Part shown: piece after piece, positions 1,961 through 25,512 of the stretch
How the letters are laid out: each line of letters starts with the position of its first letter
How positions within the stretch are numbered: position 1 is the stretch's first letter
IMG/VR virus record: IMGVR_UViG_3300008120_000368
Location: 1 to 25,512 of that record
DNA from: a virus
Reading direction: 5' to 3' (one strand)
DNA length: 25,512 nt
Notes under the pieces: generated by a model
The model's input: only the letters and a program-made list of their open reading frames with translations
The model's database searches: none
What the model was told of the DNA's origin: nothing
Position numbers and translations under genes: made by a program

Positions 1961-2973
1961 AGGTTGTTATAAATTTCCAACAAAATCTTTTTGTCGAATG
2001 TAGTAGATTCGATGCTGTTAATTTGGTCAATGACAATCTGATCGACGGATTCAAATTTTAAACCATCACCACCAGCAGTTTGTTCTGTTTGGTCAACTTT
2101 CATTGGTATCAATGTCATTTCTCTTAGTTTGTGTTCTGGAATTAATGTTTCACGAATGAAGTTAGCTTCTTCATAACTAATGTCAATATCAAGATGTACT
2201 CTAACATGACTGTCAATCAATAGCAAGCCTTCAGGGTTTTCTAACACATCACTAAGTTTATAAACTCTAAACAACGGTTGTCTTGGCCAACTATAGAATG
2301 CAGGGTCTTTACCCCATTCTAACACCATCATGCCACGTGCGTCATCTCCTGCATCTGCATAGTTATGTGGGAAGGCATTGCCAATGTACCAGATGTTTTT
2401 CTTAGCTTGTCGTTTGTGAAAGTGACCACTGAATGTCATGTCAAAACCAGTAAAGTGGTCACTGCTTAGTTCACCGTGATCGGGCATCTCTACCATAGCA
2501 TTCATATAGAAATGTGGTAGTTCAAAATGACCAAACATATATTTGCCACTTAGTTTTTGAATTTTCTTATAATCCTGTTGCACAAGCCAGGGCGCAATAA
2601 CTACATCACCCTCGCTAAACCAATCGTTAACAATAGTAAGATTGGGTAAATGTTTAGCCCACTCAACACTATGAATATCACGACGGTCACGATAATACAA
2701 ATCGTGATTACCGGGTATAAAGAAAACACGTTCAAATGCCGCACTTAATTTTTCTAGTGAACGCAATCCAAACTGAAGTGTATGAATGTTTATGCTAGCC
2801 CGGTGATGATTATAATCACCTAAAAATAAACAAGTTTCACAACCTTCTTGTTTTGCTTTGGTGATGAACCAATCTACAAAACTTTCACAATCTTGATTGT
2901 GTTGTAAACTGTTTGACTTAAGACCGAAGTGGATATCGGTAAATACTGCCGCTTTTTTGAAAAGGTTACTCAT
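1957..2973 (-). CDS. 47: gp47-like recombination nuclease subunit (SbcD/Mre11 family)
   Basis: This is the metallophosphoesterase partner of gp46 and supplies nuclease activity for DNA end processing in phage recombination. Its 338 residues match the usual length (T4 gp47 is 339). The Mre11/SbcD metal-binding motifs appear in order: DIH (Asp13, His15), GDYNHH (Gly52-Asp53 onward), GNHD (88-91), GHFE (148-151) and GHFH (183-186). The stop overlaps the gp46 start by four bases. The chosen ATG at 2973 sits immediately before the first motif and gives family length, but it has no good Shine-Dalgarno sequence; only TAAAG precedes it. A 56-bp spacer with a perfect 10-bp inverted repeat separates it from the upstream sigma factor gene, so its expression may be set separately from that gene. 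Confidence 0.95.
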   Translation of the reverse strand: MSNLFKKAAVFTDIHFGLKSNSLQHNQDCESFVDWFITKAKQEGCETCLFLGDYNHHRASINIHTLQFGLRSLEKLSAAFERVFFIPGNHDLYYRDRRDIHSVEWAKHLPNLTIVNDWFSEGDVVIAPWLVQQDYKKIQKLSGKYMFGHFELPHFYMNAMVEMPDHGELSSDHFTGFDMTFSGHFHKRQAKKNIWYIGNAFPHNYADAGDDARGMMVLEWGKDPAFYSWPRQPLFRVYKLSDVLENPEGLLLIDSHVRVHLDIDISYEEANFIRETLIPEHKLREMTLIPMKVDQTEQTAGGDGLKFESVDQIVIDQINSIESTTFDKKILLEIYNNL

Positions 2974-2979
2974 CTTTAT

Positions 2980-3008
2980 ATTATAATAGGAATGACGTTG
3001 GATTACAA
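2980..3008 (-). promoter_or_regulatory. Candidate sigma70-type promoter before gp47
   Basis: On the minus strand TTGTAA (3008-3003) is followed after 17 bases by a perfect TATAAT (2985-2980). The -35 matches consensus at 4 of 6 positions. The expected start of transcription would fall about at the gp47 ATG, giving a leaderless or nearly leaderless message, which fits the absence of a clear ribosome binding site. The region is AT-rich, so chance occurrence is possible. The -35 lies inside the inverted repeat at 2991-3015. Confidence 0.3.
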
Positions 3009-3015
3009 CGTCATT
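2991..3015. repeat. Perfect 10-bp inverted repeat with 5-base loop
   Basis: The arms AATGACGTTG (2991-3000) and CAACGTCATT (3006-3015) are exact reverse complements around the loop GATTA. It occupies most of the spacer between the sigma factor gene and gp47. No T-run follows in the direction of transcription, so it is not a standard intrinsic terminator. It could be an RNA hairpin that stabilises or processes the leftward transcript, an attenuator, or a dimeric operator. The symmetry is certain; the role is inference. Confidence 0.6.
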
Positions 3016-3029
3016 GGTTAAATTGCTAA

Positions 3030-3926
3030 TTATTCTTCATAGCTAGTACTAGAACTAGCTTGTCTTGACCAACTTGGGTTAAGACCATTGATTTCTAAAA
3101 TATCATCACGTATGTTTTGGTTGCGTTTTTCCGTATTCAATACACGGCAGAAACTATTTGTTATAGCGGCTGTATAGTAAGCAAATGGATTTGCTGATTT
3201 TGCTTCATTAAAACGTAAGCCAACATATGTTAGTTGAAGGATAGCTGAGTTGCGCATCTCATCGTTGTATGTGTACCCACGCCAATTATATTTCATTGCG
3301 TATTTTTCACACATCATAATGTACATACGGGCAAGTTTGTTTGTGATATTTCCGTGATCCTTGCTGAATTCACCGTCTCTTAACGAACCGTTCCAATGAC
3401 TTTTTCCAATACATTGATATGTATTAGTGTTATCTACACGGAAATGTTGGAATGGTGGAAAGTTAACTTTAACGTGAACCATGTCATCAACTTCGGCTTT
3501 TGTTGTTGTATCTTCTAAATCTGCAAATAGTTCATCAATATCCGATTCAACTTCAAATATATCTTTAGCAGTTTTCTTTTTGTCTGATTTGCGTGGTTGT
3601 TTTGGTGCGACCGGTACATGATCCCAAGTCATTACCCTAAAAACTAAGTCAGTCACTGGGATTGAGTCTGGGCTAACTGAATCCTTTTCTCCTGCCTCTA
3701 AACTTAATCTAGTTGCCCGTGTTTCTTTTGCTTCCTGAATGACTTCTGGTTTAGATGCATGAGCTAAACTTTCTTCAATTGTAGCTAAGGGCATGTCTAC
3801 AATATAATCATATCGGTGATCTTCTGGGGTCAAAAAGCTACAATAAGCATTTTTGCTAGAGTGAATTTCTTTTAAAATATCTTTATTATTTAGGTAGTTG
3901 ACAGGTTTTCTAGTGGTTATAGACAT
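3030..3926 (-). CDS. 55: gp55-like late-transcription sigma factor with internal insertion
   Basis: This is an RNA polymerase sigma factor of the T4 gp55 type, which directs host polymerase to late promoters for virion genes. The C-terminal core (residues about 185-285) carries the gp55/sigma region 2 pattern: WRGYTYNDEMRNSAILQL, then ANPFAYYTAAITNSFCRVL, then a basic TEKRNQNIRDD segment. The N-terminus VNYLNNKDILKEI (9-21) resembles the T4 gp55 start (YNYVNNKELLQAI). Between the two lie about 150 extra residues, including FRVMTWDHVP (96-105), a Lys-rich stretch (109-121) and an acidic stretch (124-149). T4 gp55 is 185 residues and this protein is 298. The start at 3926 is supported by GGAG eight bases upstream. 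It is the first gene of the leftward block and is transcribed away from its probable target, the baseplate operon. I recall this longer architecture from marine phage sequences but cannot verify that here. Confidence 0.85.
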   Translation of the reverse strand: MSITTRKPVNYLNNKDILKEIHSSKNAYCSFLTPEDHRYDYIVDMPLATIEESLAHASKPEVIQEAKETRATRLSLEAGEKDSVSPDSIPVTDLVFRVMTWDHVPVAPKQPRKSDKKKTAKDIFEVESDIDELFADLEDTTTKAEVDDMVHVKVNFPPFQHFRVDNTNTYQCIGKSHWNGSLRDGEFSKDHGNITNKLARMYIMMCEKYAMKYNWRGYTYNDEMRNSAILQLTYVGLRFNEAKSANPFAYYTAAITNSFCRVLNTEKRNQNIRDDILEINGLNPSWSRQASSSTSYEE

Positions 3927-9650: not shown

Positions 9651-12600
9651 ATGAGTGATGATATTCAAAAAGTACGAGGTACACTTAGTAACTATAAAGA
9701 TGATAGAGGTGGTGCCAACACGATTCCTAGCGCAGAGCTTGGTATTGTTAAAGATAATATTGATACCACTCGTTCAGGAAGAATTAGAGTTTACTTAAAA
9801 CGCCTAGATGCTGGCAATGAAGATGATCCAAACAGTTGGAAATATGTAAGTTACTTAAGCCCTTTCTTTGGCTCAACACCCAATACTGCCAGTTCTAAAT
9901 CAGAAGGTGACTACTTAGGCAATCCACAAAGTTATGGCTTCTGGGCAACTCCACCTGATATAGGTACTGAAGTTGTTTGTCTTTTCTTAAATGGTGTTGC
10001 TGATGCTGGATATTATATTGGTTGTGTTCCTACTCCGGGACTAACACACATGGTTCCTGCAATAGGATCAAGTGATAGTGTAATCATAAACAATTCTGGC
10101 GAAGCTGATTCATATGGTGGCGCAACTAGATTGCCGGTTGGCGAAATAAACAATGCAAATCAAAAACAAGATAACAAGTCGTTGTTGTCGGCACTGTCTA
10201 GACCGGTGCATAGTTATCAGGCAGCAATATTAAACCAACAAGGTCTTATACGTGATCCTGATAGAGGTACTATTGGTAGCAACAGTATGCGTGAAAGTCC
10301 TAGTCGAGTGTTTGGTATAAGCACTCCTGGACGACCTATATACGAAGGTGGGTACGATGATACTACAATTGCAGATGCAGTTAAAGATGATTCTATTCCT
10401 GACAAAAATTTCAAAGTTGTAGGTAGACGAGGCGGGCATAGTGTTGTATTAGATGACGGAGACCTAGCCGGTAAAGACCAGTTAATGAGATTTAGAACTG
10501 CCGGCGGTCATATGATAATGATGAATGATAGTATTCAATCATTGTTTATTATTCACGCTAATGGTCAAAGTTATATTGAATTGGGTCGTGAGGGTACAAT
10601 TGATATGTACTCGACCAACAGTGTTAATATCAGAACACAGGGTGATTTAAATCTACACGCAGATAACGATATAAACATTCACGCTGGTAAAAACTTCAAC
10701 GTCAATGCTGAAAACATAAAAACAGAAAGTTCTAAAGAGACAACTAGCTTTGTTGGAACTAATTTTAAACAACAAATCAAAGCAGACATGACTGTAAAAG
10801 TAGATAGTAAAATGAGTTTTACTAGTACCGGTGATAGTAGTTTTAAAAGTTCAGCAATTTCATATATTAACGGTAGCAAGATAAATTTGAATACTGGTTC
10901 AAGTGGTCTAGTACCGGCTGATGTTAAACAAATGCCACTAGTTGCTCACACTGATACACTGTATGATAAGAAAAAAGGTTATGCTGCCGCACCCGGCAAG
11001 CTATCTAGTATTACCAGTAGAGCACCAGCACATAGTCCGTGGGCCTCGGCCGGTCAAGGTGTTAATGTTAAAACTGACATAAGCGCAGACTCAAACTTAC
11101 CAGCCGCACCTTCGCCTACTTTGTCTGCTGTTAATAATAGTACACCTGCAGTACCGCCAGCCGGAGTATCAGCCGCACTGTCTGCGGCCGCACCCAACGT
11201 ACCGGCAATTTCAGATAAATTTGATAAGGCTGCAACTAGCGCATTAGTTTCACAAATGGCAGTTGGCGCCGCTACAGGTTTAACTGCTGGTGCTGTAGCT
11301 GGAGCCGCAGGAATAGTTGATGTTGCTGGGCAAAAAGTAGCTAGTCTTGGTACGTATGGATTAAACCCTACTCAACTTGCTAATTCCGGAGTGTTAAAAA
11401 AGGGAGCAGACGTAGCAGTGAATGCCGCTGTTGCAGCCGGAAAATCATTGTCTGACGCAATGCCAACTAATTTGTTTACAGGATTGAATGGTATTAAAAG
11501 TGCGTCACAGTTTATTGGTAGTTCTTCGGCACAAGCCTCTTCTGCGGTATCATTGTTAAAACAAGGTTCAGATGCACTGAGTGCTACCGGTATATTGGGT
11601 ACTAATACAAGTCCAACACAGACAGGCGGATTGATGCTGTCTGCTGCCACTGCTGGAATCGACAAAACACTTGACTATGTTAAGACAACTGGAGGTGCTC
11701 TGGGTACAGGACTAACCTTGGGAAGCCAAATAGGCGGACTTAAGTTGCCTGGTAATTTATCTGCTATGTCAGGATCAGTTAAAGATATTATTTCAGGTGG
11801 AAATTTTGCTGCCAATCTAGCAGATAAGGTAACTGGTCCACTAAGTGGGTTGCCTGTTGCGGATCAATTAAAGGGAGCCGCTGCCGGAGCGTTTGCAAAA
11901 ATAACATCTGCTTTTAAATCATTTCCTAAGATTGGTGCACCTATTAACTTAACCGCAATCAAAGCAAAAAATGATGAAGATCAGGCTGCGGAAGATAGTA
12001 AAGATGCAGTACAAACACCAGAACAAATCGCCGCAAACGCATCGTTAAATCAAAAATTAACTAATGCTTTGGGATTACAAGCTGGTGGAACAACATCATC
12101 GGTATTAGGCGGTATAGGTGATAAAATTAGAGCGGCAACTTCTGGAATCACCGACCCAGCTAAATTAGCAAGTGCTACAGTAACTGCTTTGGGAACTGCT
12201 ACTAAAGGGTTTGGTGTAGATACTAGTGGATTGAGTAACTTACCGGGTGGAGCTTCAGCAATATCTAACGTAGTAAATTTAGGTCCAGTCGCAAAATCTA
12301 TTTCTAGTGATTTAAATAGTGGATTAAATGTTGGTGGTGTTACCGGCGCCGCAAACAAATTAGTATCAGGTGCAATAGACATCCCCGGGCTTCCTAGTAT
12401 ACCTGGTATTCCTAATGTACCGGGTAGTGGAGAATTATCCGGTGCTATTAACAAAATTTCTGGATCATTGTCAGGCTCAACAGGTGGAGTAACCGATGCA
12501 TTATCCGGGATAAAGTCTAAGTTGAGTGGTACTGGTGGATTACAAGCCTTGGCTGGTTTGGGATTAGGAACTAAAGGGCTATCATTATTAAGTAGTAGTA

Positions 12601-12977
12601 TCAATTCAATTGGCGCCGGTGGCGCAGTTGAAGTTAAGTTACCAACTGTAGCTAAAGATAGTTTTGATTTTGGTCCTATGATGGCTCAAGCTAAATCCTT
12701 GTTAGGTAACCCTAAGATCCCAGCATTGCCTTTTGGAACAATCCCAACCGGAGCATTTAAGATGCCAACTGCCGCAGAGGCGGAAAAATACGATAAACTT
12801 AAAGCAGAGTTAACAATACAAGAAGATTTACAATTTGATTTAAGAAAATCATATTTAGACTTCAAACTGAAACTTGGCCCAGATGATTCAACAACTACGA
12901 CTGCATATGCGGCATGGCAGGATAACGTTAAGAAAATTGAAACGATAAGACAAGACATGTCTAAAGTAGTGACATAA
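9651..12977 (+). CDS. 5: gp5-like central spike protein, no lysozyme domain, long Ala/Gly/Ser-rich extension
   Basis: This 1,108-residue protein is the probable needle beneath the tail tube. Residues about 28-128 look like the gp5/VgrG OB-fold (GIVKDNIDTTRSGRIRVYL, then YGFWATPPDIGTEVVCLFL and AGYYIGCVP). Residues about 280-418 form a triple-stranded beta-helix pattern (GGHMIMMNDS, INIHAGKNFNVNAE). T4 gp5 has a lysozyme domain between these parts; here the stretch 130-280 shows no lysozyme catalytic pattern. Residues about 430-1050 are Ala/Gly/Ser-rich, with a possible module at about 568-685 (YGLNPTQLANSGVL, then NLFTGLNGIKSASQFIG). The last 60 residues are charged helices. It follows the hub-like gene by 18 bp and precedes gp25. 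AAAAGAG lies just upstream of the ATG. The spike role is well supported; the C-terminal role is unknown. Confidence 0.8.
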   Translation: MSDDIQKVRGTLSNYKDDRGGANTIPSAELGIVKDNIDTTRSGRIRVYLKRLDAGNEDDPNSWKYVSYLSPFFGSTPNTASSKSEGDYLGNPQSYGFWATPPDIGTEVVCLFLNGVADAGYYIGCVPTPGLTHMVPAIGSSDSVIINNSGEADSYGGATRLPVGEINNANQKQDNKSLLSALSRPVHSYQAAILNQQGLIRDPDRGTIGSNSMRESPSRVFGISTPGRPIYEGGYDDTTIADAVKDDSIPDKNFKVVGRRGGHSVVLDDGDLAGKDQLMRFRTAGGHMIMMNDSIQSLFIIHANGQSYIELGREGTIDMYSTNSVNIRTQGDLNLHADNDINIHAGKNFNVNAENIKTESSKETTSFVGTNFKQQIKADMTVKVDSKMSFTSTGDSSFKSSAISYINGSKINLNTGSSGLVPADVKQMPLVAHTDTLYDKKKGYAAAPGKLSSITSRAPAHSPWASAGQGVNVKTDISADSNLPAAPSPTLSAVNNSTPAVPPAGVSAALSAAAPNVPAISDKFDKAATSALVSQMAVGAATGLTAGAVAGAAGIVDVAGQKVASLGTYGLNPTQLANSGVLKKGADVAVNAAVAAGKSLSDAMPTNLFTGLNGIKSASQFIGSSSAQASSAVSLLKQGSDALSATGILGTNTSPTQTGGLMLSAATAGIDKTLDYVKTTGGALGTGLTLGSQIGGLKLPGNLSAMSGSVKDIISGGNFAANLADKVTGPLSGLPVADQLKGAAAGAFAKITSAFKSFPKIGAPINLTAIKAKNDEDQAAEDSKDAVQTPEQIAANASLNQKLTNALGLQAGGTTSSVLGGIGDKIRAATSGITDPAKLASATVTALGTATKGFGVDTSGLSNLPGGASAISNVVNLGPVAKSISSDLNSGLNVGGVTGAANKLVSGAIDIPGLPSIPGIPNVPGSGELSGAINKISGSLSGSTGGVTDALSGIKSKLSGTGGLQALAGLGLGTKGLSLLSSSINSIGAGGAVEVKLPTVAKDSFDFGPMMAQAKSLLGNPKIPALPFGTIPTGAFKMPTAAEAEKYDKLKAELTIQEDLQFDLRKSYLDFKLKLGPDDSTTTTAYAAWQDNVKKIETIRQDMSKVVT

Positions 12978-12996: not shown

Positions 12997-13440
12997 ATGG
13001 CAACATACATTGGGTTTAGTACAAAAAACGTGAACGCTGTCAGAAAGACAGTACCCACTGGTACGGATGGCGGCTCTACTATAATAGCCAAATCAGGATC
13101 ACGCAAACGGTTTAAACTGACAGACGAACAACTAGTAATTAATGATCTTATCAATGCGTTAAACATACCACAAGGACAAAAACCCGGTAAACCTAGCTAT
13201 GGTACTACAATTTGGTCTTTCATTTTTGAACCAAATACTTTAGATGTGCGACAAGCGTTGACTACTGAAGTACAAAGAGTTGCACAATTAGATCCTAGGA
13301 TTGAATTAAATTCAATAGAAGTGTATCACCAAGATCATGGCATATTGATCCAACTTGAAATGGCAATTGCCCCCTTCAATGACGCTATGACGTTTAATCT
13401 ATTCTTTGACCCCAAGACAAATTCAGTCTACGGTAGTTAA
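12997..13440 (+). CDS. 25: gp25-like baseplate wedge protein (gpW/gp25 family)
   Basis: This 147-residue protein is a conserved wedge subunit of contractile injection systems; in T4, gp25 contacts the sheath-initiation region and gp6/gp53. Residues about 65-140 show the family pattern: GTTIWSFIFEPNTLDVRQAL, then EVQRVAQLDPRIELNSIEV (the EPR-type core) and a closing beta pair ILIQLEMAIAPFNDAMTFN. T4 gp25 is 132 residues. The N-terminal 60 residues are basic and variable, with a GSRKRFK patch. AGGA six bases before the ATG supports the start. It sits between the spike and gp6 genes, whereas in T4 gene 25 lies in a different cluster. Confidence 0.9.
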   Translation: MATYIGFSTKNVNAVRKTVPTGTDGGSTIIAKSGSRKRFKLTDEQLVINDLINALNIPQGQKPGKPSYGTTIWSFIFEPNTLDVRQALTTEVQRVAQLDPRIELNSIEVYHQDHGILIQLEMAIAPFNDAMTFNLFFDPKTNSVYGS

Positions 13441-13486: not shown

Positions 13487-16400
13487 ATGGCCACAAGTTC
13501 AAGACAATCTAGTATTTTTGGTGTAAATGATTGGAAAACAATCTATAAAACATACAAGCAAGCTGATTTCCAAAGCTACGATTACGAAACCCTTCGTAAG
13601 ACGTTCGTAGATTACCTACGTAAAAACTATCCGGAAACATTCAATGACTATATTGAATCTAGTGAATATGTTGCTCTACTAGACGTAATGGCATTCATGG
13701 GTCAAGCATTGAGCTTCCGTGATGACTTAAACACCCGCGAAAACTTCATTGACACCGCCGAACGCAGAGACAGTGTTATCAAGCTAGCTAATTTGGTTGG
13801 ATATAATCCTAAACGCAATCAAACTGGCGAGGGTTATTTAAAAATTACGTCAATTCAAACAACTGAACAAGTTAAGGATATCAATGGTTTAGTTCTTAAT
13901 AACTTAACAATTTTGTGGAATGATCCTGCTAACCCAAATTGGCAAGAACAATTTAACAGTATTATAAACGCGGCACTAATTGACTCACAGCGCATCGGTC
14001 GTCCTGGAAATAGTAAATCAATACTAGACGTTAAGACAGACGAATACAGTATTAGTCTTCCTACTGGCATTATTGCAACTGCTCCATTCAACGCAACTGT
14101 TGACGGAGTAAACATGGATTTTGAATGCGTTAGTGTAACTAGTTTAAATTCTGATAGTTTATATGAAATACCACCTGGCCCTAATGGCAAATTTAACATA
14201 GTGTATCGTAATGATAGACTGGGTTACGGAAGTCCAAACACCGGATTCTTTATGTATTTCAAACAGGGTTCACTACAAACATATGGTTTTAATTTAACTG
14301 AACAGATTAGTAGCCAAGTAGTTGATGTTAACATTCAAGGTATTAACAATACTGATACATGGTTATATAACTTTGACAATACGACCGGTGCAATTAATCA
14401 ATGGACTCAGGTAGACAGTATCTATGCTAACAATACTAATCAATTACTATCTACAAATAAAAAAATATACAGTATAACATCTCGCTTCAATGACCAAGTA
14501 AGTTACGTTTTTGGTGACGGAGTGTTTGGTGAAATGCCAATTGGTAACTTCACTGCATATGTTCGTGCCGGTAATGCACTAACTTATACAATCAACCCTG
14601 ATGAAATGCAAGGGACTACTGTTTCTATTAATTACATAAGCCGTGTTGGACGAGTAGAAACTTTGACAATAACAATGGAACTAACTATTCCGGTTGCCAA
14701 TGCACAAGCAAGAGAAACTCTTGCAAATATTAAGCAACGTGCTCCACAACGATTCTATAGTCAAAATCGTATGGTTAATGGAGAAGACTATAATAATTTT
14801 CCATATACATTATATGGATCAATCATTAAAAGTAAAGCACTTAACCGCAGTAGCGTGGGTGTAAGTCGCAATTTTGACTTGTTAGATCCAAGTGCAAAAT
14901 ACTCAAGTACAAACAATTTTAGTGATGACGGTGGTTTATACTTAGAGAATGGTGACGGGTATACTACGTTTACTGCAAATACTTCCAATGATGTTGTTGC
15001 ATTTTTAACAGAGACTTTAAATAACGAATTGAACGATCACCGATCTTACCAATATTATACACAAAATTATAGAAGATACAATGTTAACAGCGGTACGGGA
15101 GATGGTACAGTTGTTTGGAATCAAAGCTCATTCAATACATTAGAATCAACTGGATATTTTAAAAATCTTTCTGGTCCTATGCCCATTGGTGTTTACAGTA
15201 CCGGTAATGTAAAATATCTTACTGAAGGCGCACTGATTAAATTTATTGCACCTAGTGGTTATTATTTTGGTCAAGACAACAGATTGATTGAAGGATTACC
15301 TACCCCAGCAGACAATACATTTATTTGGACTAGCGTGGCAAGTGTAACTGGCGATGGTTGTAATAATGGTCAAGGAAATTTAGGCAGCGGCTTTGGCCCA
15401 GTGGTGTTAAATAATCCTATACCCAACGGAGTAATATTAACAACCGTTCTTCCTTCATTTACAAATCTATTACCATCCGATGTAATTCAAGACTGTATAA
15501 CACAAATTACATTGAATCAAAGTTTTACCTTAATTTACAATAACGCATTGCTTGCAAATCAAACACGATGGATAGTTGACACGTTTGACAAGACTAACTA
15601 TTTTGTCAAATTTGAAAGTTTAGGTAGTAATCGTTATATGGTAACGTATAAGTCATTAGCATATTACTTTGGTAGTGTAGCTAATATTCGATTTACATTT
15701 AACAAAAACAATGTCATATATGATCCTTCTACTGGAAAATTACTACAAGATTTTGTCAACGTATTGAAAGTTAATAGTCAACCAGATAGTAACTATCCGT
15801 TTGCAGTCGATAATAAGTTAAGTATCGTTGGGCAGTTAGTTGAGAGTGACGGTTATATTGATGACTATAGTGTAGAAATTTCTAGTACGGATCCCAATGT
15901 AGCTGGCGTTGTCAAAGATCCCGATTTCTTTTATGACCTAACTGGATATGCAACTGGTACAAAGAACACATCACATTTTGTATTCTTTCAACAAGTAACT
16001 GATATCAATTTATTAACTAGATATCAAATGGTATCTAATAAAAACATAATTTATGCATATACTACTAAAGCAGAGATAGCAGTAGTTCAGTATGAATATG
16101 CTGCCGGTCAATTATACTATGCTACTAAAGAAAATGCATTTTATCAATCGGTAAACGATGCGGTAACAAAAAACATTATTAGATTGGTGCAAGTTAGCAA
16201 CTACATTGCAAAGACCGGAAGACAAGGTTTATCATTCCAATATAGACACAACTCAAGCAATACAACACGTATTGATCCGGCCACAACTAACATCATTGAT
16301 TTGTATGTTGTGACCCAGTCTTATTATACTCAGTATCAAAATTGGATTAAAGATACGTCAAATAAATTGACAGAACCTACAAGCCCATCTATCAATGAGT

Positions 16401-16843
16401 TAAATATAGCATACAGCGAAATCAATGATTATAAAATGTTAACTGATAGTGTTATTTTAAACAGTGTTCAATTTAAACCATTGTTTGGAAATAAAGCATC
16501 ACCTCAACTACGTGCTACTATTAAAGTTATTAAGTCTAGCGGAACAACTGCCAGTGACAGTGAAATTCGAAGCGCAGTGCTAAGTGAAATGAATACATAC
16601 TTCAGCATTGACAATTGGAATTTTGGTGACACTTTTTACTTCACTGAACTTAGTGCATATTTGCATTCTAAGATAGGTGACTTAGTAAACTCTGTGGTGC
16701 TAGTGCCAAATGATCCTTCATTGAAGTTTGGTGACTTGTATGAGATTCGTAGCGCACCTTACGAAATTTTCGTCAATGCGGCACAAGCAACTGATATCAT
16801 GGTTATCAGCGCATTGACACCCGCCGAACTACAAACATTTTAA
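13487..16843 (+). CDS. 6: gp6-like baseplate wedge protein (baseplate J type), enlarged
   Basis: In T4, gp6 dimers form the inner ring that links wedges of the baseplate. This protein has 1,118 residues against 660 in T4. Both ends are recognisable. The N-terminal part (about 35-120) includes YETLRKTFVDYLRKNYPE, YVALLDVMAFMGQALSFRDD and an ERRDSVIKLANLVGY segment. The C-terminal part (about 985-1105) includes DSVILNSVQFKPLFG, DNWNFGDTFYFTELSAYLHS and NSVVLVPNDPSLKFGDLYEI. A middle piece includes YVFGDGVFGEMPIGNFTAYVRAG and AQARETLANIKQRAPQRFYS, typical of baseplate J-like wedge proteins. The extra length lies in residues about 500-970, a beta-rich Tyr/Asn/Thr region with no family I recognise. 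The ATG has AAGAG nine bases upstream. Confidence 0.85.
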   Translation: MATSSRQSSIFGVNDWKTIYKTYKQADFQSYDYETLRKTFVDYLRKNYPETFNDYIESSEYVALLDVMAFMGQALSFRDDLNTRENFIDTAERRDSVIKLANLVGYNPKRNQTGEGYLKITSIQTTEQVKDINGLVLNNLTILWNDPANPNWQEQFNSIINAALIDSQRIGRPGNSKSILDVKTDEYSISLPTGIIATAPFNATVDGVNMDFECVSVTSLNSDSLYEIPPGPNGKFNIVYRNDRLGYGSPNTGFFMYFKQGSLQTYGFNLTEQISSQVVDVNIQGINNTDTWLYNFDNTTGAINQWTQVDSIYANNTNQLLSTNKKIYSITSRFNDQVSYVFGDGVFGEMPIGNFTAYVRAGNALTYTINPDEMQGTTVSINYISRVGRVETLTITMELTIPVANAQARETLANIKQRAPQRFYSQNRMVNGEDYNNFPYTLYGSIIKSKALNRSSVGVSRNFDLLDPSAKYSSTNNFSDDGGLYLENGDGYTTFTANTSNDVVAFLTETLNNELNDHRSYQYYTQNYRRYNVNSGTGDGTVVWNQSSFNTLESTGYFKNLSGPMPIGVYSTGNVKYLTEGALIKFIAPSGYYFGQDNRLIEGLPTPADNTFIWTSVASVTGDGCNNGQGNLGSGFGPVVLNNPIPNGVILTTVLPSFTNLLPSDVIQDCITQITLNQSFTLIYNNALLANQTRWIVDTFDKTNYFVKFESLGSNRYMVTYKSLAYYFGSVANIRFTFNKNNVIYDPSTGKLLQDFVNVLKVNSQPDSNYPFAVDNKLSIVGQLVESDGYIDDYSVEISSTDPNVAGVVKDPDFFYDLTGYATGTKNTSHFVFFQQVTDINLLTRYQMVSNKNIIYAYTTKAEIAVVQYEYAAGQLYYATKENAFYQSVNDAVTKNIIRLVQVSNYIAKTGRQGLSFQYRHNSSNTTRIDPATTNIIDLYVVTQSYYTQYQNWIKDTSNKLTEPTSPSINELNIAYSEINDYKMLTDSVILNSVQFKPLFGNKASPQLRATIKVIKSSGTTASDSEIRSAVLSEMNTYFSIDNWNFGDTFYFTELSAYLHSKIGDLVNSVVLVPNDPSLKFGDLYEIRSAPYEIFVNAAQATDIMVISALTPAELQTF

Positions 16844-16856
16844 TAGGTAAAACAGA

Positions 16857-19800
16857 ATGGCAACAAGAGTTAGAACAATTGATTTTTTACCAGAAATCTT
16901 TAAAACAGATATTAACAATCAGTTTCTATCGGCTACACTAGATCAATTAGTACAACCTCCTAATTTCAAAAAAATTCAAGGGTTTATTGGAAGTAAGTTT
17001 GGGTATGGTGTTACCTCTAACGACGGCTATGTGGCTGAACCAACTAAGACTAGATCGGATTATCAGTTAGAACCAGCAGTCATTTTTAAAAAGAAAGATA
17101 CTCAAGTTGCAGTAGATGCTATTACATACCCTGAATTAATTGATTCATTATATGTTGAAGGTGCTGCCACTGACAACCACAACAACTTATTCACTAATGA
17201 ATTTTATTCATGGGATAGTTTTACAGATTTAGACAAGCTAATAAACTACAGCCAATATTATTGGTTGCCACAAGGTCCTGAACCAGTTAACATCAGTGAT
17301 ACTGACATGTACAAAAGCGGTACATTCACTATGCTCTCTAATAATGTGGTATATGATATTACATCTGATTTATTTACGTTTGACGTAAGTAATCCTACAA
17401 TCACATTGGTTAGAGGTGGTTCGTACAAATTTGTAGTAGGGCAAGATACTCAGTTTTTCATTCAAACAGAACCGGGTATTACTGGTTATGAAAAACTAAG
17501 AACAAACATTAGTACACGTGAAGTCTATGGGGTAGATAATAATGGGTTAGCCAATGGCACTATTACCTTTGATGTACCACTAGCTAATGCACAAGATGAA
17601 AACAACTATCCGGGTAATAACCCTGTTGACTTGGTTACTAATAAATCAATTGGCGATGTACACGGCAAAAAATTAAGTGAATTAAACAACATTGACGGTA
17701 TTGCAAGTTTAGATGGAAAAAGAATATTATTCTATGGAACGCAGCCAGAAGTACAAGCATACATTGGAGACTTCTACGGAGAGTATGCATTTGACGTTGA
17801 TAATCCTAGCAGAGTTATACCTATTGTAACTGAAGTAACCGCAACAACAGGCGAAGTAACAGACTTTGACGAAGAAACGTTTGATAGTGACCCATTAGCT
17901 TATACAAGACATACGATAACGTGTTTGTCTACTAGTGGATTTGATGTTAATGACGCAGTAACATTTACTGGAATTTCTTTTGGTGGTATAGAAGAAGGAT
18001 TAGTTTATTACATAGCTAGTGTTATAAATGACACCACTTTTAGTATATCTCCTTCTTTGTACGGAACTGCACTTGAGCTAACTAACGGTACAACCAATTC
18101 AAATGGTAAGTTGTATGTAACCGTGCATCAAGGTGGATTTGAAGAAGGTACATTAACTACTGTAAATAATAATTTTTATAGAATCTCATATGTTGGTGAA
18201 GTAGATGATCCTATTATCAGTTTATATGAAGATGGTGTGATCCCAAATGACCAAACGATAGAAGTAAATTATGGTAAACAGTATATCACTCGTCATTTTG
18301 TTCGCAATGCATATGGGGAAATATTATTAGTCCCTCTTATTACTGCCACTCTAAACAAGTTGTACTATCAGGACAGCGTCAATCCAGACCAGTATGGTAT
18401 CATTAAACTTATTGATTCTCCTAGCCTTTCTGAAATAGACATTGATGATATTATAGGAAAGAAAACATATACTAGCCCAAACGGAGTAACGTTTACAAAT
18501 GGCTTAAAGGTTAAGTTTAACGGTAATATTACACCTGCCAAGTATACCACAGACCAATATTATGTAGAGGGTGTTGGCACAAGCATTGCGTTATTGCCAG
18601 TTAGTGAACAGTTAGTACCTGAACCGTTTGGTCAGGGATTCTTTGCACCATTTGACAATGCAGCCTACGACACAGACGCATACGGTAATGCATTACTAGT
18701 ACCGGCGGAGAGTGATTATATTACCATCAACCGTAATAGCAAAAGTAAAAATGCCTGGAGTCGCAGTAATAGATGGTTTCACGTTGACGTATTAACTACC
18801 ACACTTGCTAATAATAGTAACAGTCCAATGGTTGCAACAGCACTTTCTAACACAACCGCTAGGGCCAAAAGACCGATCATTGAATATTATCCAAATATAA
18901 AATTATTCAATTCAGGTAGCATGGGTAAAGCACCGGTCGATTATATAAATTTTAGTGTCACTGATGCATTCAATCAAGTTGCAGGACAAACTACATATTT
19001 TCCAGACGGTGCTGAAAATGAATTGTTTGATGGTGCACGAATTATATTTGCTAATGATACTAACGTTGAAGTCAGAAATAAAATTTTTGTATGTAACTAT
19101 AGTAAAACAAAATCTACTACAACGGGTTCAGTTATTACATTAACTAAAGCATATGACGGTGATGTATTATATAATGACCAAACAGTTATAGTTAAGGGAA
19201 CTACTTATCAAGGTAAGAGTTTTTATTTTGATGGTTCTGTTTGGATACCCGCACAGTTCAAACAGTATGTAAATCAATATCCCAAGTTTGATGTGTTTGA
19301 TACCAATGGAATAAGTTTTGGTGATATTGAATATTATCCTGGTACTGATTTTATTGGTTCAACATTATTTGAATATCAATCTAGCTCGGGCGTAGATGAT
19401 GTTATTTTAGGTTTTCCTATTAAGTATAGTTCTATTACCAACATCGGTGACATTAGTTTTAGTGTAAGTTTAAATTCTCAAACATTCAACTACGTATATA
19501 ACAGCCAATCTATTACTACGTCAGTAAATTCAGGTTATGTTCATATCTACTCATCAAATACAATTTATGGCAGACATATTGGTTGGCAAACGGCTGTTTC
19601 ACCTTCTATCCAGTATCAGGTCTTTAATCTAGCATACTCTCAAGATACAATAATATGCGATATTCCTGCAAAAGATGTGGCAGAAACAGAATGGCCAGTG
19701 ATTACTGTATACGTAGATAATCAACGAACTACGGATTATACTTATATAGTAACTGACACAACCACTGTTATCACACTAACCAATCCACAAGTAGTAGGTA

Positions 19801-22800
19801 CACCAATAGAAATTTTAATTTACAGCGATAGCGTTAGTAAAGTTGCATATTATCAAATACCTGCAAACTTTGACCATAACCCGTTCAACGCACAAGTAGC
19901 TGTGGTTAACTTAGGTGACTTGCGTGGTCATTATAAGAGTATCTGCAACAATATTAAAACATTAACTGGTAATGCATTTGGACCCAACAACTATAGAGAT
20001 TTAGGAAATCTCGTTATATATGGTACACGTATCATACAGAATAGTGCCTCACTTGTAGCACCAGCTATATTTTTAAAATCATCTGATAATAATATTTTCA
20101 ATGCACTAACTTTCAATGCAACTGAATATACAAAATTCAAGGCAGCATTGATGGATACGGTAAACAGATCAGATTATAATCCATTACAACCTAACAGCGA
20201 TATATTGGATGATGCATTAGATCAATTGACCGGTACTAGGTCAGACACTAACTCTTTCTTTTGGAGTGATATGCTACCCTCAAAAGGAGCATTAACTGTC
20301 AAAACATATAACTTTAAGAGCGGTGTAGATTCATCTATATACCCCTTAACAAAAGTTTATGATTATGCTACTGCTAACTATAATGGTGTACTAGTATATC
20401 TAAACAGAAAAATTGATGGCGTAGTTCGAAACATACAATTACTAAACGATATTGATTATCAAGTAAGTTCAACTGAAAAAAGTTTAACTATTAGCAAATA
20501 TCTGTTACCTAACGATGTGCTTACCATCAAAGAGTATTCACAAACATACGGAAGCTATGTACCAAATACTCCTACTAAACTGGGACTATATCCATCATAT
20601 ATACCAGAAGTTTTTAAAGATAACAGTTTCATAACACCTACATATTTTATCAGAGGTCATGATGGATCATATACAAAACTGTATGGTGATTATAATGAAG
20701 GGTATCTAGAAGATTTTAGAGACCGTGTATTGTTTGAATTTGAAAACAGAATTTATAATAATTTAAAAGTTAAAGCTAAGATACCTCTAGAATATGATGA
20801 TATTTTTCCGGGACAATTTAGAACTACTGATTACTCGTTTGAAAAGTTAAACGCAATATATTCCTCACAGTTTTTAAACTGGGTGGGTACAAATAGAGTA
20901 AACTATCAAACTCAATATTATAGTGCCACTAATGAATTTACATGGAACTATAGAAATTCTACAAACAAGTTAACTAATACTAATCTTCAACAAGGTAATT
21001 GGAGAGGGGTATTTTATTGGTTATATGATACATCACACCCAGATACTCGTCCATGGGAATTATTAGGTATAAACAATAAACCAACTTGGTGGGATAGCCG
21101 TTATGGCGAAGCCCCATATACAAGTGACAATACATTACTATGGACTGATCTAAGTAACGGGTATGTATGGAATAACGGTGACGGTTATATTAATACTAAA
21201 CGTGTTCGACCTGAATTATTGAAGGTATTGCCAGTAGACTCTAAGGGTAGATTAGTTAGTCCATTTACGAATTTACTAAGCGCATACGACATTAAAACTT
21301 TCAATATAGATTGGAACATTGGAGATTTAGGTCCAACTGAATATAGCTATAGAAAGAGCAGTCAATGGCCATTCGATTTAATGCGCATGTATGCATTATC
21401 TAAACCTGCACAATTTTTCTCGTTAGGTATTGACCTTGACGTATTGCAATATAACTATGAATTTAAACAATACTTAGTTAATGATAGATTACGTCAACCA
21501 CCGTCGAGCTTGTTAATATACGGCGGCGGAGAAGATAACGCCGCTCATAGTTATTTGAACTGGATTGTTGATTACTTAAACCAATATGGTATTAACGGTA
21601 GTCAACAAATATCAGATTATTTTAATAATACTGATGTTAGATTAACTTATAGAATGGCTGGATTTAGTGATAAAGACTTGTTAAAATTCTATGCAGAAAA
21701 AGGATCACCTAACAGTAAGAACAATAGTTTGTTGATACCTGACGAAAGCTACAATGTCATACTGTATGAGAATCAACCGTACGACATCATTGTATATAGT
21801 TCCATCGTCATACAAAAAACTAGTCTTGGTTATAGAGTATATGGAAAATATGGTACTGAATTTACTAGTCTAAGTGCCTTAGTACAATTTGTTGGTGGGT
21901 ACGGCAATTATTTAGAAACTCAAGGTGTAACATTTAACAATATTGAAAATGCATTAGAGTTAAATTGGAAACAGATGATTGCAGAACTTCTATACTGGTC
22001 TAGATCTGGCTGGGAAGATGGTAGTATTGTAAACTTGAATCCAAATGCTAATAGTATTACTATTACTACAGAACGTGGTATATTACAACCACTAACACTA
22101 TACCGTGACAACTATATTCTAAATCAAAACTTAATACCTATTCCATTAAATGACTTAGCTATTACCAGACTGGATACTACGTTCACTGCTACTGCATTAA
22201 ATCAGGGTGATTCTATAAGTTTTATGCGAAGCAAAATAAGTGGTGTAGAACACATTGTGATATTTGACAACACCACTGTATTTAATGATACTATGTTTAA
22301 CTTAGTTACGGGCTTACGCCAACAACGTATATACGTTAAAGGTGTAAAAACGGCTGAATGGACTGGTCAGATGAACGCTGCCGGGTTTATTATTAATCAA
22401 GACAATATACAAGAGTGGGTTACTAATCAAAAATATAACAAAGGTTCGATTGTCAAGCACAAGAATGAATATTGGATTGCAAACAAAGTAACAGTAACGC
22501 CTGCTACTAAATTTAATCCAGACGAGTGGCACATAACATCATATGATAGTATCCAAAAGGGTATGTTACCTAACCCTAGTACTAGGGCATATGAATCAAC
22601 CTTGTACTATAACACCAACATAGCTAATTTAAAAAATGATGCAGACTTATTAAGTTTCTCATTGATTGGATATCGTCCTCGTAACTATCTAGCGGAAGCT
22701 AATTTGGATGATACTACTCAAGTTAATATCTACAAGAATTTGATTTCAAGTAAGGGTACTAGAAATGCATTCGATTCATTGGTTGGTATAAACCTACAAC

Positions 22801-25512
22801 AATCAAATTTAACATATGATTTTTATGATAACTGGGCGATCAAAACTAGCGAGTACGGCGGGGTATTAAACAAAAACTTTATTGAACTTACGTTAGATGA
22901 GAGCCAACTTTTAGGCAACCCAGCCACTATTGGTATCGTACATGGCGAAGAATTGCCGGGCATTCAACAAATAATTCAACTTTATAATTTGAAAAATTAC
23001 GGCTATGCTGTAAACAATACAAACATCTTACCTACTATTCCTTCTACCACTGATAGTAAATTACCATCTGCGGGTTATGTAAACTTAGATGACATATCAT
23101 ATACCGGTTACTATATTAGTAACTTAGATGATACTTCTATTGGTAATCTATACAAAAATGATTATATTTGGATTGCTGATAAAATTGGAGAATGGAAAGT
23201 TTATACTCCAGTGGCATCTACTAGCAGATTAGTTAATGTAATCAATAACTTAAATAACACTTGCACTTTCATTTTTAGTGGTCATCACGATTTTAGTGTC
23301 AATGATAATTTTGGTATTATAAACTATGAGTATCGTGTCAATGGATACTATACAGTGTCATCTATTGATAGCTTAACTGCAATTGTGGTTGATTTGGTAA
23401 TTGATTCTTCAGTAAGTAATATTACTACCAGTGGTAGTAATAGCATTATGTTTAAGCTAGAGAATCAACGGGTAGAACGTGCAAAAGACATTGTTGCTTT
23501 AAAATTGTTGAACTCAGAATATTCAAACAACAAAGTATGGGTAGATAAAAACTTATCCGGCGAGTGGAGTGTTCTACGTAAAACTAACAACTACTCATAT
23601 ACTAATTTTATTAAACCAGGTGGCACAATTGAATTTGGTAGTGCAGTATCATATACCGACAAACTAGGATTTTTTGTCTCAGACCCTGCAAATAGTAAAG
23701 TTCATCGTTTCTTGGAAGTTAATAGTGGTAATACTGATTATGCACTGGTTGATACTATTACGCATGGTCAAGGCTTTGGTACTGCTATAGCTAAAAACGA
23801 TGATGTAATGATTATATCACAGCCCGATCCATTCGGTGATTTGAGTATTCTATATGTTTATAGAATGGTTAGTAATGATAGAATCACATCACTAGTAGAA
23901 GAACAGATTCTTGCAGTTGCTGGATTTAGATTAGGTGATAGTGTAGCACTGTCTGGTGATGGCGAAATGTTCTACGCTAGTATCATTGACCTCAATGCAA
24001 TTGTTGAGTTCCAGCGTAGAGCGGATTATACCTATTATAATATCGGTGCTACACTAAAAGCATCAGTGACACCTGGATCTACATCTATTGAATTGAATGG
24101 TAATATTCCTAATTTAGTACCAGGTAGATATATTACGTTTACTGCGTTTGGATATGATGAAAAGTATATGGTAGTAACTTCAAGTTATAGTTCATCAACT
24201 AATTCTACCAGAGTTTATTTATATACTCCCGTACCATATAGCGTTGGTATCGGTGCAAACGTTTATAGAGCCAGCATCAGTTATTTCTTATTGGGTGCTA
24301 TTACAAGTGAAGGATTAGCCAATGGTACTGATTTGTTCAGTTACAGTTTAGCTACAAATTATGACGGAAGTAAATTATTTGTTGGATCCCCTCAATCTGA
24401 TTTTAGTGGACAATTGCAAGATTCTGGTTACGCATTTATATTTGATAGATTGATTGAAAATTGGGAAGTAGTTACAGACAGCCCCGGAAATAGCTTCTCA
24501 CTATTTTTCTTGCCATGGCAACCTACACCAACATCTATTGTTTACCTAAACGGTGTCAAACTTAATCCTTCATATTATGTATTGATATCAAACTTGTTAG
24601 TTGTAGGTCCTATATTACGTGCCGGCGACATACTAACGGTTAGCAGTGGTAATCTAGTATTAGTGCAACAAATTGCAAGCTATGATTTAATTGAAGATAT
24701 TGACCCGGGTGCTAAATTTGCATGGTCACTAGATTGTAATACATCGGGTAGTGAAGTATTGGTTGGTAGTCCATTCAATTTAAATCCAGAAGAAAAAGAA
24801 GGTGCGGTGTTTAGGTTCTCTAATGAAGGTAAACACTTTGGTAGAATCACTGGAATATTACAATGTAACTTATTACAACCAGCTAGTATTTTGATTAATG
24901 GATATCGTGTTGCATTGTCTGAACCTACTCCACAAGCACCGGGTAATGCATTTTACGTAGCAACCAAAATCAATCAAGCTGTCATTACTAACGTTTTTGC
25001 GTATGCAACAGAAGACAATCGTTTGGTGATTCGTTTACGTGATTTTGACTTGAATCCAATTAACAACAAATTAAACTTAACAGTCTTTAACGGAAATATT
25101 ATGGCAATGCTTGGAATAGCAATGTATATAAAGACTCAAGTGGTATATGATCCGCATCCTAGCACTAGAACTCAGTTTGGATATAAAGTTAAATTCAACG
25201 AACAAAACAGTTTTGTAGTAAGCGCACCTGCCGGCACAAGATATGTCGGAACACAGTTTGATTTTAGTAATGATGAAAACAATCACAATGATACTGTGTT
25301 TGACAATAACTTTACTCAATGGGAAGATGCATACAGTGATGCAGGTATTGTGTACATGTATGATTATATCCCCTCATATGCTGAAAGTTTATTAACTGCA
25401 AGTAACTATGTATATTCACAGTCTCTTCCGGACACTGTACTTGATTATGGTCGTCAACCATTCTATGGTCAATCATTAGATTTCTATAAAAATAAAGTAA
25501 TGATTGGCTCAC
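16857..25512 (+). CDS. 7: Giant gp7-position baseplate wedge protein with C-terminal beta-propeller, 3' end cut by window
   Basis: The ATG at 16857 has AGGT eight bases upstream. The frame stays open for 2,885 codons to the right edge; T4 gp7 is 1,032 residues. It follows the gp6-like gene by 13 bp, the position of gene 7 in T4. The N-terminus reads RTIDFLPEIFKTDINNQFL, then LDQLVQPPNFKKIQGFIG and YSQYYWLPQGPEPV, a start I associate with wedge/peripheral proteins of T4-like marine phages; no direct T4 gp7 identity is visible. The central region is beta-rich and Tyr/Asn/Thr-rich, with TWWDSRYGEAPYTSDN and WPFDLMRMYALSKPAQFFSL segments and at least three modules with a 'YLNG...Y...GD.LT' outline. 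From residue 2257 there are seven FG-GAP-like motifs. It probably forms the outer part of the wedge. Function is inferred from order and size. Confidence 0.65.
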   Translation, partial: MATRVRTIDFLPEIFKTDINNQFLSATLDQLVQPPNFKKIQGFIGSKFGYGVTSNDGYVAEPTKTRSDYQLEPAVIFKKKDTQVAVDAITYPELIDSLYVEGAATDNHNNLFTNEFYSWDSFTDLDKLINYSQYYWLPQGPEPVNISDTDMYKSGTFTMLSNNVVYDITSDLFTFDVSNPTITLVRGGSYKFVVGQDTQFFIQTEPGITGYEKLRTNISTREVYGVDNNGLANGTITFDVPLANAQDENNYPGNNPVDLVTNKSIGDVHGKKLSELNNIDGIASLDGKRILFYGTQPEVQAYIGDFYGEYAFDVDNPSRVIPIVTEVTATTGEVTDFDEETFDSDPLAYTRHTITCLSTSGFDVNDAVTFTGISFGGIEEGLVYYIASVINDTTFSISPSLYGTALELTNGTTNSNGKLYVTVHQGGFEEGTLTTVNNNFYRISYVGEVDDPIISLYEDGVIPNDQTIEVNYGKQYITRHFVRNAYGEILLVPLITATLNKLYYQDSVNPDQYGIIKLIDSPSLSEIDIDDIIGKKTYTSPNGVTFTNGLKVKFNGNITPAKYTTDQYYVEGVGTSIALLPVSEQLVPEPFGQGFFAPFDNAAYDTDAYGNALLVPAESDYITINRNSKSKNAWSRSNRWFHVDVLTTTLANNSNSPMVATALSNTTARAKRPIIEYYPNIKLFNSGSMGKAPVDYINFSVTDAFNQVAGQTTYFPDGAENELFDGARIIFANDTNVEVRNKIFVCNYSKTKSTTTGSVITLTKAYDGDVLYNDQTVIVKGTTYQGKSFYFDGSVWIPAQFKQYVNQYPKFDVFDTNGISFGDIEYYPGTDFIGSTLFEYQSSSGVDDVILGFPIKYSSITNIGDISFSVSLNSQTFNYVYNSQSITTSVNSGYVHIYSSNTIYGRHIGWQTAVSPSIQYQVFNLAYSQDTIICDIPAKDVAETEWPVITVYVDNQRTTDYTYIVTDTTTVITLTNPQVVGTPIEILIYSDSVSKVAYYQIPANFDHNPFNAQVAVVNLGDLRGHYKSICNNIKTLTGNAFGPNNYRDLGNLVIYGTRIIQNSASLVAPAIFLKSSDNNIFNALTFNATEYTKFKAALMDTVNRSDYNPLQPNSDILDDALDQLTGTRSDTNSFFWSDMLPSKGALTVKTYNFKSGVDSSIYPLTKVYDYATANYNGVLVYLNRKIDGVVRNIQLLNDIDYQVSSTEKSLTISKYLLPNDVLTIKEYSQTYGSYVPNTPTKLGLYPSYIPEVFKDNSFITPTYFIRGHDGSYTKLYGDYNEGYLEDFRDRVLFEFENRIYNNLKVKAKIPLEYDDIFPGQFRTTDYSFEKLNAIYSSQFLNWVGTNRVNYQTQYYSATNEFTWNYRNSTNKLTNTNLQQGNWRGVFYWLYDTSHPDTRPWELLGINNKPTWWDSRYGEAPYTSDNTLLWTDLSNGYVWNNGDGYINTKRVRPELLKVLPVDSKGRLVSPFTNLLSAYDIKTFNIDWNIGDLGPTEYSYRKSSQWPFDLMRMYALSKPAQFFSLGIDLDVLQYNYEFKQYLVNDRLRQPPSSLLIYGGGEDNAAHSYLNWIVDYLNQYGINGSQQISDYFNNTDVRLTYRMAGFSDKDLLKFYAEKGSPNSKNNSLLIPDESYNVILYENQPYDIIVYSSIVIQKTSLGYRVYGKYGTEFTSLSALVQFVGGYGNYLETQGVTFNNIENALELNWKQMIAELLYWSRSGWEDGSIVNLNPNANSITITTERGILQPLTLYRDNYILNQNLIPIPLNDLAITRLDTTFTATALNQGDSISFMRSKISGVEHIVIFDNTTVFNDTMFNLVTGLRQQRIYVKGVKTAEWTGQMNAAGFIINQDNIQEWVTNQKYNKGSIVKHKNEYWIANKVTVTPATKFNPDEWHITSYDSIQKGMLPNPSTRAYESTLYYNTNIANLKNDADLLSFSLIGYRPRNYLAEANLDDTTQVNIYKNLISSKGTRNAFDSLVGINLQQSNLTYDFYDNWAIKTSEYGGVLNKNFIELTLDESQLLGNPATIGIVHGEELPGIQQIIQLYNLKNYGYAVNNTNILPTIPSTTDSKLPSAGYVNLDDISYTGYYISNLDDTSIGNLYKNDYIWIADKIGEWKVYTPVASTSRLVNVINNLNNTCTFIFSGHHDFSVNDNFGIINYEYRVNGYYTVSSIDSLTAIVVDLVIDSSVSNITTSGSNSIMFKLENQRVERAKDIVALKLLNSEYSNNKVWVDKNLSGEWSVLRKTNNYSYTNFIKPGGTIEFGSAVSYTDKLGFFVSDPANSKVHRFLEVNSGNTDYALVDTITHGQGFGTAIAKNDDVMIISQPDPFGDLSILYVYRMVSNDRITSLVEEQILAVAGFRLGDSVALSGDGEMFYASIIDLNAIVEFQRRADYTYYNIGATLKASVTPGSTSIELNGNIPNLVPGRYITFTAFGYDEKYMVVTSSYSSSTNSTRVYLYTPVPYSVGIGANVYRASISYFLLGAITSEGLANGTDLFSYSLATNYDGSKLFVGSPQSDFSGQLQDSGYAFIFDRLIENWEVVTDSPGNSFSLFFLPWQPTPTSIVYLNGVKLNPSYYVLISNLLVVGPILRAGDILTVSSGNLVLVQQIASYDLIEDIDPGAKFAWSLDCNTSGSEVLVGSPFNLNPEEKEGAVFRFSNEGKHFGRITGILQCNLLQPASILINGYRVALSEPTPQAPGNAFYVATKINQAVITNVFAYATEDNRLVIRLRDFDLNPINNKLNLTVFNGNIMAMLGIAMYIKTQVVYDPHPSTRTQFGYKVKFNEQNSFVVSAPAGTRYVGTQFDFSNDENNHNDTVFDNNFTQWEDAYSDAGIVYMYDYIPSYAESLLTASNYVYSQSLPDTVLDYGRQPFYGQSLDFYKNKVMIGS
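23625..25512 (+). repeat. Seven FG-GAP-like motifs (probable beta-propeller) in the gp7-position protein
   Basis: Motifs of the form (F/L)G-x-S/A-V/L-hydrophobic run-V/I-S/G-x-P begin at residues about 2257, 2306, 2356, 2492, 2619, 2772 and 2869. Examples are GFGTAIAKNDDVMIISQP, LFSYSLATNYDGSKLFVGSP, FAWSLDCNTSGSEVLVGSP and FGYKVKFNEQNSFVVSAP. Each complete one is followed by a closing strand such as SGYAFIFD, GAVFRFS or GIVYMYDY. The last is cut by the window. Long inserts, probably separate beta domains, separate motifs 3-4, 4-5 and 5-6. Seven motifs fit a seven-bladed integrin-like propeller. Confidence 0.55.

Follow-up and report, generated by a model that had tools for sequence, protein, structure and literature searches.

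Why should a phage protein encoded among baseplate genes carry repeats of the FG-GAP type, whose propeller fold is one usually met in integrins and in proteins on the surface of microbes? The question is raised by a 25,512-base IMG/VR virus record (IMGVR_UViG_3300008120_000368), analyzed here in its entirety and referred to as the window. Its last open reading frame (ORF), which leaves the 3′ end open, encodes a giant virion protein in which an earlier inspection of the letters (the sequence-only reading) had seen seven FG-GAP motifs in order, starting at position 23625, and had proposed an integrin-like propeller. We find that this region is a seven-bladed beta-propeller of the FG-GAP_2 type, six and a half blades of which lie in the window, and that the propeller is a module at a conserved, fixed joint of the giant protein, the site being mapped to a few residues by comparison with propeller-less relatives. 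It is carried by a large lineage of environmental, uncultured jumbo phages and is lacking in the cultured relatives that were looked at.

A seven-bladed propeller of the FG-GAP_2 type

The structure of an 817-residue region of the relative L009 (same contig as L005) was predicted with AlphaFold2, which yielded a model with a predicted local distance difference test score (pLDDT) of 81.7 and a predicted template-modelling score (pTM) of 0.81. DSSP assigns 28 blade strands to this model, which form seven groups of four. A Foldseek search against the PDB returned propeller proteins at E values down to 1e-7, including integrin alpha6beta1 (7ceb, E 7.5e-6), at low TM-scores, as is expected because the model has large inserts. 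Among viral models the leading matches were an uncultured Caudovirales protein (1e-27), proteins annotated as FG-GAP and a 393-amino-acid (aa) protein of Atu_ph07, with a target-normalised TM of 0.62. The blades are positioned in the window as follows, the limits of blades 1 to 6 being taken from DSSP of the AlphaFold2 model.

23631..23768, plus strand: blade 1
23772..23918, plus strand: blade 2
23925..24308, plus strand: blade 3
24024-24278, plus strand: insert of blade 3, 85 aa, C-D loop (0-237 aa in the family)
24324..24677, plus strand: blade 4, strand C GYAFIFD; the stretch matching FG-GAP_2
24468-24626, plus strand: insert of blade 4, 53 aa, C-D loop (50-275 aa in the family)
24705..25151, plus strand: blade 5, strand C GAVFRF
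24825-25121, plus strand: insert of blade 5, 99 aa, C-D loop (31-185 aa in the family)
25167..25427, plus strand: blade 6
25230-25343, plus strand: insert of blade 6, 38 aa, low confidence, B-C loop
25455..25511, plus strand: blade 7, strands A-B only, cut by the contig end (complete in L003-L008)

The motifs are present in the order proposed and begin at 23631, slightly downstream of the position given before; motifs 1 to 6 are complete, and motif 7, half of which is within the window, is cut after strand B and completed in relatives. The strand that had been singled out as GYAFIFD/GAVFRF-type is strand C of blades 4 and 5. Inserts decorating the propeller had also been noticed, at 75-100 residues each and between blades. 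They do exist, but their lengths are 85, 53 and 99 residues, plus 38 in blade 6, and they are located inside blades: blades 3, 4 and 5 hold theirs in the C-D loop, blade 6 in the B-C loop.

Profile searches gave the same picture. When scanned singly with Pfam, 49 of 50 aligned relatives matched FG-GAP_2 (PF14312; best E 2.8e-17), and matches were likewise found in 45 of the 48 remote segments scanned (best 4.2e-25); two scans with profiles of the flanks had each yielded 548 candidate relatives. Several relatives score over the curated FG-GAP_2 cut-off. The window's own match is weak (20.5 bits, under the curated cut-off of 23) and a Pfam scan of the whole 2885-aa ORF gave no match, so that the repeats are seen solely in sub-regions and in relatives. 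Comparison of blade sub-profiles with hhalign put all seven blades in one group: 11 of the 21 pairs had a probability of at least 92%, and every blade paired with one or more others at probability 92-97; the inserts and flanks that served as controls gave 3% or less. A blade hidden Markov model (HMM), trained on four blades and then iterated, had no matches in shuffled segments, nor in the part of these proteins that adjoins the propeller. The number of blades detected per segment ranged from 0 to 7 in 143 complete segments, with a peak at 5-6 and never more than seven, and in a compact lineage, which has no long inserts, the seven blades follow one another at even spacing, 26-69 residues apart. 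Together, the profiles, the repeat comparison, the structure prediction and the family blade counts agree on an FG-GAP-type seven-bladed propeller, which bears out the core of the sequence-only reading: the predicted structure shows the propeller, PF14312 matches the family, and the seven motifs align with one another as repeats.

The propeller is an internal module at a fixed site

The propeller had been placed at the distal part of the protein. This placement does not hold: in relatives about 2,300 residues follow the propeller, which is therefore internal. The same protein is found in six close relatives, four of which reach the stop codon (5,285 aa in L005), and in the wider family complete ORFs are 4,460-6,498 aa long and open ones at least 6,767 aa. 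The giant ORF is intact in many independent contigs, and FG-GAP_2 matches were confined to it in the eight large virus contigs (92-525 kb) that were scanned.

A left flank, NKVWVD..GEWSV, and a right flank, VVDI...DP.QGK.LG...DPA.YN, are common to carriers of the propeller and cultured phages. The left flank is located in the window at:

23529..23594, plus strand: left flank of the propeller site, NKVWVDKNLSGEWSVLRKTNNY, matching KVWID..DWAV of PA5oct

In PA5oct the sequence KVWID...DWAVAVV is followed by about ten residues and then by the right flank, and the site is also short in RaK2 and PBECO4. Other sequence is present at the site in SCTP-2 and Atu_ph07. In PA5oct, RaK2, PBECO4 and some contigs, the flanks that enclose the propeller in carriers enclose about 215-320 aa of other sequence. 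A LamG domain at the SCTP-2 site looked likely by eye, had no Pfam support and is not claimed.

At least two blades were detected in 126 of the 143 complete segments and none in 16. No blade turned up in the nine phages, cultured or named, that were tested, three carriers serving as positive controls; a tblastn search with the propeller segment against 50,697 phage records gave nothing significant, and relatives were not found in a scan of 84,980 cellular genomes. Presence of the propeller splits the family tree cleanly, since in a tree of the left flank region a fully supported branch separates all 47 sampled carriers from 15 of 16 non-carriers. The exception, L186, groups with the carriers and has a YHYH domain (PF14240, 6.6e-31) at the propeller site (L186:12437-14290). 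As the tree has no known root, gain in one clade and loss in the other both fit. We tentatively raise the possibility that a large uncultured jumbo-phage lineage carries an exchangeable FG-GAP propeller at a fixed socket, swappable for example for a YHYH domain, and that this propeller is a secondary adhesion head analogous to, and independent of, integrin heads. The site would then be a socket at which these phages exchange surface modules.

Genomic context and the gp7 position

The genes that surround the propeller-encoding region, and a module upstream of it in the same ORF, are the following.

16857..25511, plus strand: giant virion protein ORF, 2885 aa, 3′ open at the contig end (phrog_10938)
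13487..16843, plus strand: gp6-type baseplate wedge protein, directly upstream of the giant ORF (phrog_10646/219; PF21379 weak)
12997..13440, plus strand: gp25-type baseplate wedge protein (PF04965, 1.1e-7; phrog_43)
9651..12977, plus strand: baseplate hub protein, gp5/tail-lysozyme type (phrog_13211, 3.3e-42; PF04717 weak)
22413..22535, plus strand: CBM5/12-like module upstream of the propeller, a lead at the level of the family (PF02839 in 15 of 35 family members)

The giant ORF matches PHROG 10938 (virion structural protein) at E 4.7e-214, with homology in four stretches. The gene order in the window (hub/lysozyme, gp25, gp6, giant protein) is the same for the annotated relatives in PA5oct, RaK2, Atu_ph07 and PBECO4; in SCTP-2 the giant gene is present and its neighbours are mostly unannotated. 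The PA5oct protein, gp355, carries an electrospray ionization tandem mass spectrometry (ESI-MS/MS) mark in its record. CBB_236 of phage CBB, which adjoins gp6 and gp25, was detected in virions (PMC5259590) and is apparently, by gene order, the counterpart of the giant protein.

The sequence-only reading had assigned the giant protein to the gp7 position. In T4 the wedge arm is made of six gp7 copies and touches gp8, gp9 and gp10, the last two of which carry the fibres (PMC3004832), and in XM1 the tail spike is bound by flexible parts of gp17 (PMC10457771). Gene order agrees with the assignment, but searches for homology to T4 gp7 found none: T4 gp7 was not among the PDB sequence matches of N-terminal giant-protein profiles, and Foldseek on residues 1062-2261 gave no significant fold match, using a model with a pTM of only 0.57. 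The gp7 position is thus a matter of gene order; by analogy with T4 and XM1 the giant protein is likely to be the wedge arm. The paper on RaK2 adsorption (PMC10253068) makes no mention of a propeller, gp070, gp071, gp7 or a baseplate wedge.

Several further features of the locus were observed. SbcC-like, SbcD-like and late sigma factor genes are located beside the baseplate cluster (2-3926, minus strand), which is a T4-like arrangement. At 21847/21848 the window is without 126 bp (42 codons, in frame) that L003, 99.9% identical upstream of this point, possesses. The two ends of the gap have a microhomology, ATATGG, in common, and the block that is missing is conserved across the family; the gap may be a true deletion or an assembly error. 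For the CBM5/12-like module, PDB and fold searches gave weak matches to chitin-binding domains and also to All3316, a contractile-injection baseplate protein of Anabaena. Outside the window, residues 4350-4645 of L009 contain a second repeat array of five S.DG..W-type (Asp-box/BNR-like) motifs, with four to seven in several relatives; judged from these motifs, it is probably a second propeller near the C-terminus.

Proposed role of the propeller

We consider it fairly probable that the seven-bladed FG-GAP_2 module in the joint of this giant baseplate-wedge-region protein is an exposed platform to which glycans of the host surface, a fibre or another adhesion protein would bind. By analogy, binding of the host surface or of a fibre at the baseplate rim would be its most likely function. 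In a closed propeller the two termini would be side by side, so that the module would fit the joint without disturbing the parent protein. The propeller could then be a rigid disc within the wedge arm, gripped on its conserved side. Blades 5-7 and the conserved block that follows them would probably pack against the baseplate body, and blades 2-4, together with the length-variable C-D inserts of blades 3-5, which by propeller geometry should exit from one face, would point outward. The ligand of the outward face might be a surface sugar, a fibre or some further adhesion protein. Exposure is favoured by the pattern of variation: in distant relatives, blades 2-4 are 26-39% identical to L009, compared with about 50% for the body and near 50% for blades 5-7, and the inserts of blades 3 and 4 are the most variable in both length and sequence. 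A CBM_5_12 domain, which would be a fitting neighbour for an adhesive module, was found in 15 of the 48 remote segments scanned.

Some points weigh against this role. When only close relatives (80-94% identical) are compared, the propeller does not exceed the body in variability. The fastest-changing part among them is residues 4700-5285 of L009 (64-73% identity), and because the extreme C-terminus is the most variable part it may be the main, or true, receptor contact. Taken by itself, the CBM5/12 match in the window falls short of significance. Finally, closure of the ring was judged from the strand pattern, pTM and Foldseek only.

The first of these points, together with the conservation of blades 5-7 and of the right flank at the level of the body, would suit a propeller that is a structural hub inside the tail, with loops that dock fibres or neighbouring wedges. 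Such a hub has a precedent in the nozzle protein of SU10, whose seven-bladed propeller has further domains between its blades and, on blade 1, a loop that docks short fibres (PMC9509320). Yet the wide spread in length of inserts 3 and 4 and the loss of conservation in blades 2-4 speak against it, as do the replacement of the propeller by a YHYH domain in L186 and the absence of the whole domain from PA5oct, RaK2 and others; we regard a structural hub as unlikely, although it is the alternative that deserves most attention. A calcium-dependent ligand-binding head that is the functional analogue of the integrin alpha propeller is very improbable. The FG-GAP repeats, the seven blades, a weak integrin alpha-4 match in a profile search (0.013) and the alpha6beta1 fold match speak for it, but the calcium-loop pattern (integrin DxDxDG type) is present in only 2 of 50 and 2 of 48 sequences, the window has a degenerate form in blade 5 only, and the best Pfam model is FG-GAP_2 and not PF01839. 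Integrin-type calcium binding was consequently rejected since the loop is not conserved, and the description "integrin-like" stands for the fold and not for the repeats.

An enzymatic propeller of the glycosidase or sialidase type, cutting surface sugars, seems equally far-fetched: phage endosialidases are among the best fold matches, but at TM-scores of 0.2-0.3, for which generic propeller similarity accounts, and no enzyme family profile gave a convincing match. As to chance motif matches or an artefact, which the sub-threshold Pfam score of the window and the truncated C-terminus might suggest, the family profiles, the blade comparison, the HMM controls, the model and the intact ORFs in many contigs rule them out, and we give them practically no credence. 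An exposed binding platform is the reading that we favour.

Comparison with known systems

In jumbo phages, most giant virion proteins bear no annotation beyond "hypothetical" or "virion structural protein", and one module of such a protein is now identified by its fold. A portion of a protein exceeding 5,000 aa can thereby be treated as a domain with defined limits, one that can be expressed and whose possible part in adsorption can be put to the test. Neither the giant protein family nor the FG-GAP_2 repeat is new in itself. In the literature searched we found no paper joining FG-GAP to phage baseplates or tail fibers, nor did we find the combination, the fixed insertion site or the lineage split.

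Like the giant protein, T4 gp7 and XM1 gp17 are encoded beside gp6, and they are wedge proteins bearing peripheral attachments (PMC3004832, PMC10457771); they are 1032 and 242 aa long, respectively, and sequence or fold homology to the giant protein was not detected. The integrin alpha propeller (PF01839) is similar in its seven blades and the order of its FG-GAP motifs, with weak fold and profile matches, whereas the phage propeller has neither a conserved calcium loop nor partner-subunit features and is found in another context. The SU10/T7-type nozzle propeller likewise belongs to a phage tail, carries inserted domains and docks fibres (PMC9509320), and it is the nearest structural precedent, although it belongs to a short-tailed phage and a sequence link to the giant protein is not shown. 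The PHROG 10938 proteins (PA5oct gp355, RaK2 ORF070 and those of PBECO4, Atu_ph07 and SCTP-2) are homologous over the N-terminal about 2,100 residues and the block after the propeller, and occupy the same place after gp25 and gp6; they differ in lacking FG-GAP blades, in the sequence at the site, which is short or unrelated, and in a total length of 3,326-4,555 aa. Finally, the FG-GAP_2 repeat proteins (PF14312) share the repeat profile, which is here set in a phage tail protein and furnished with C-D loop inserts.

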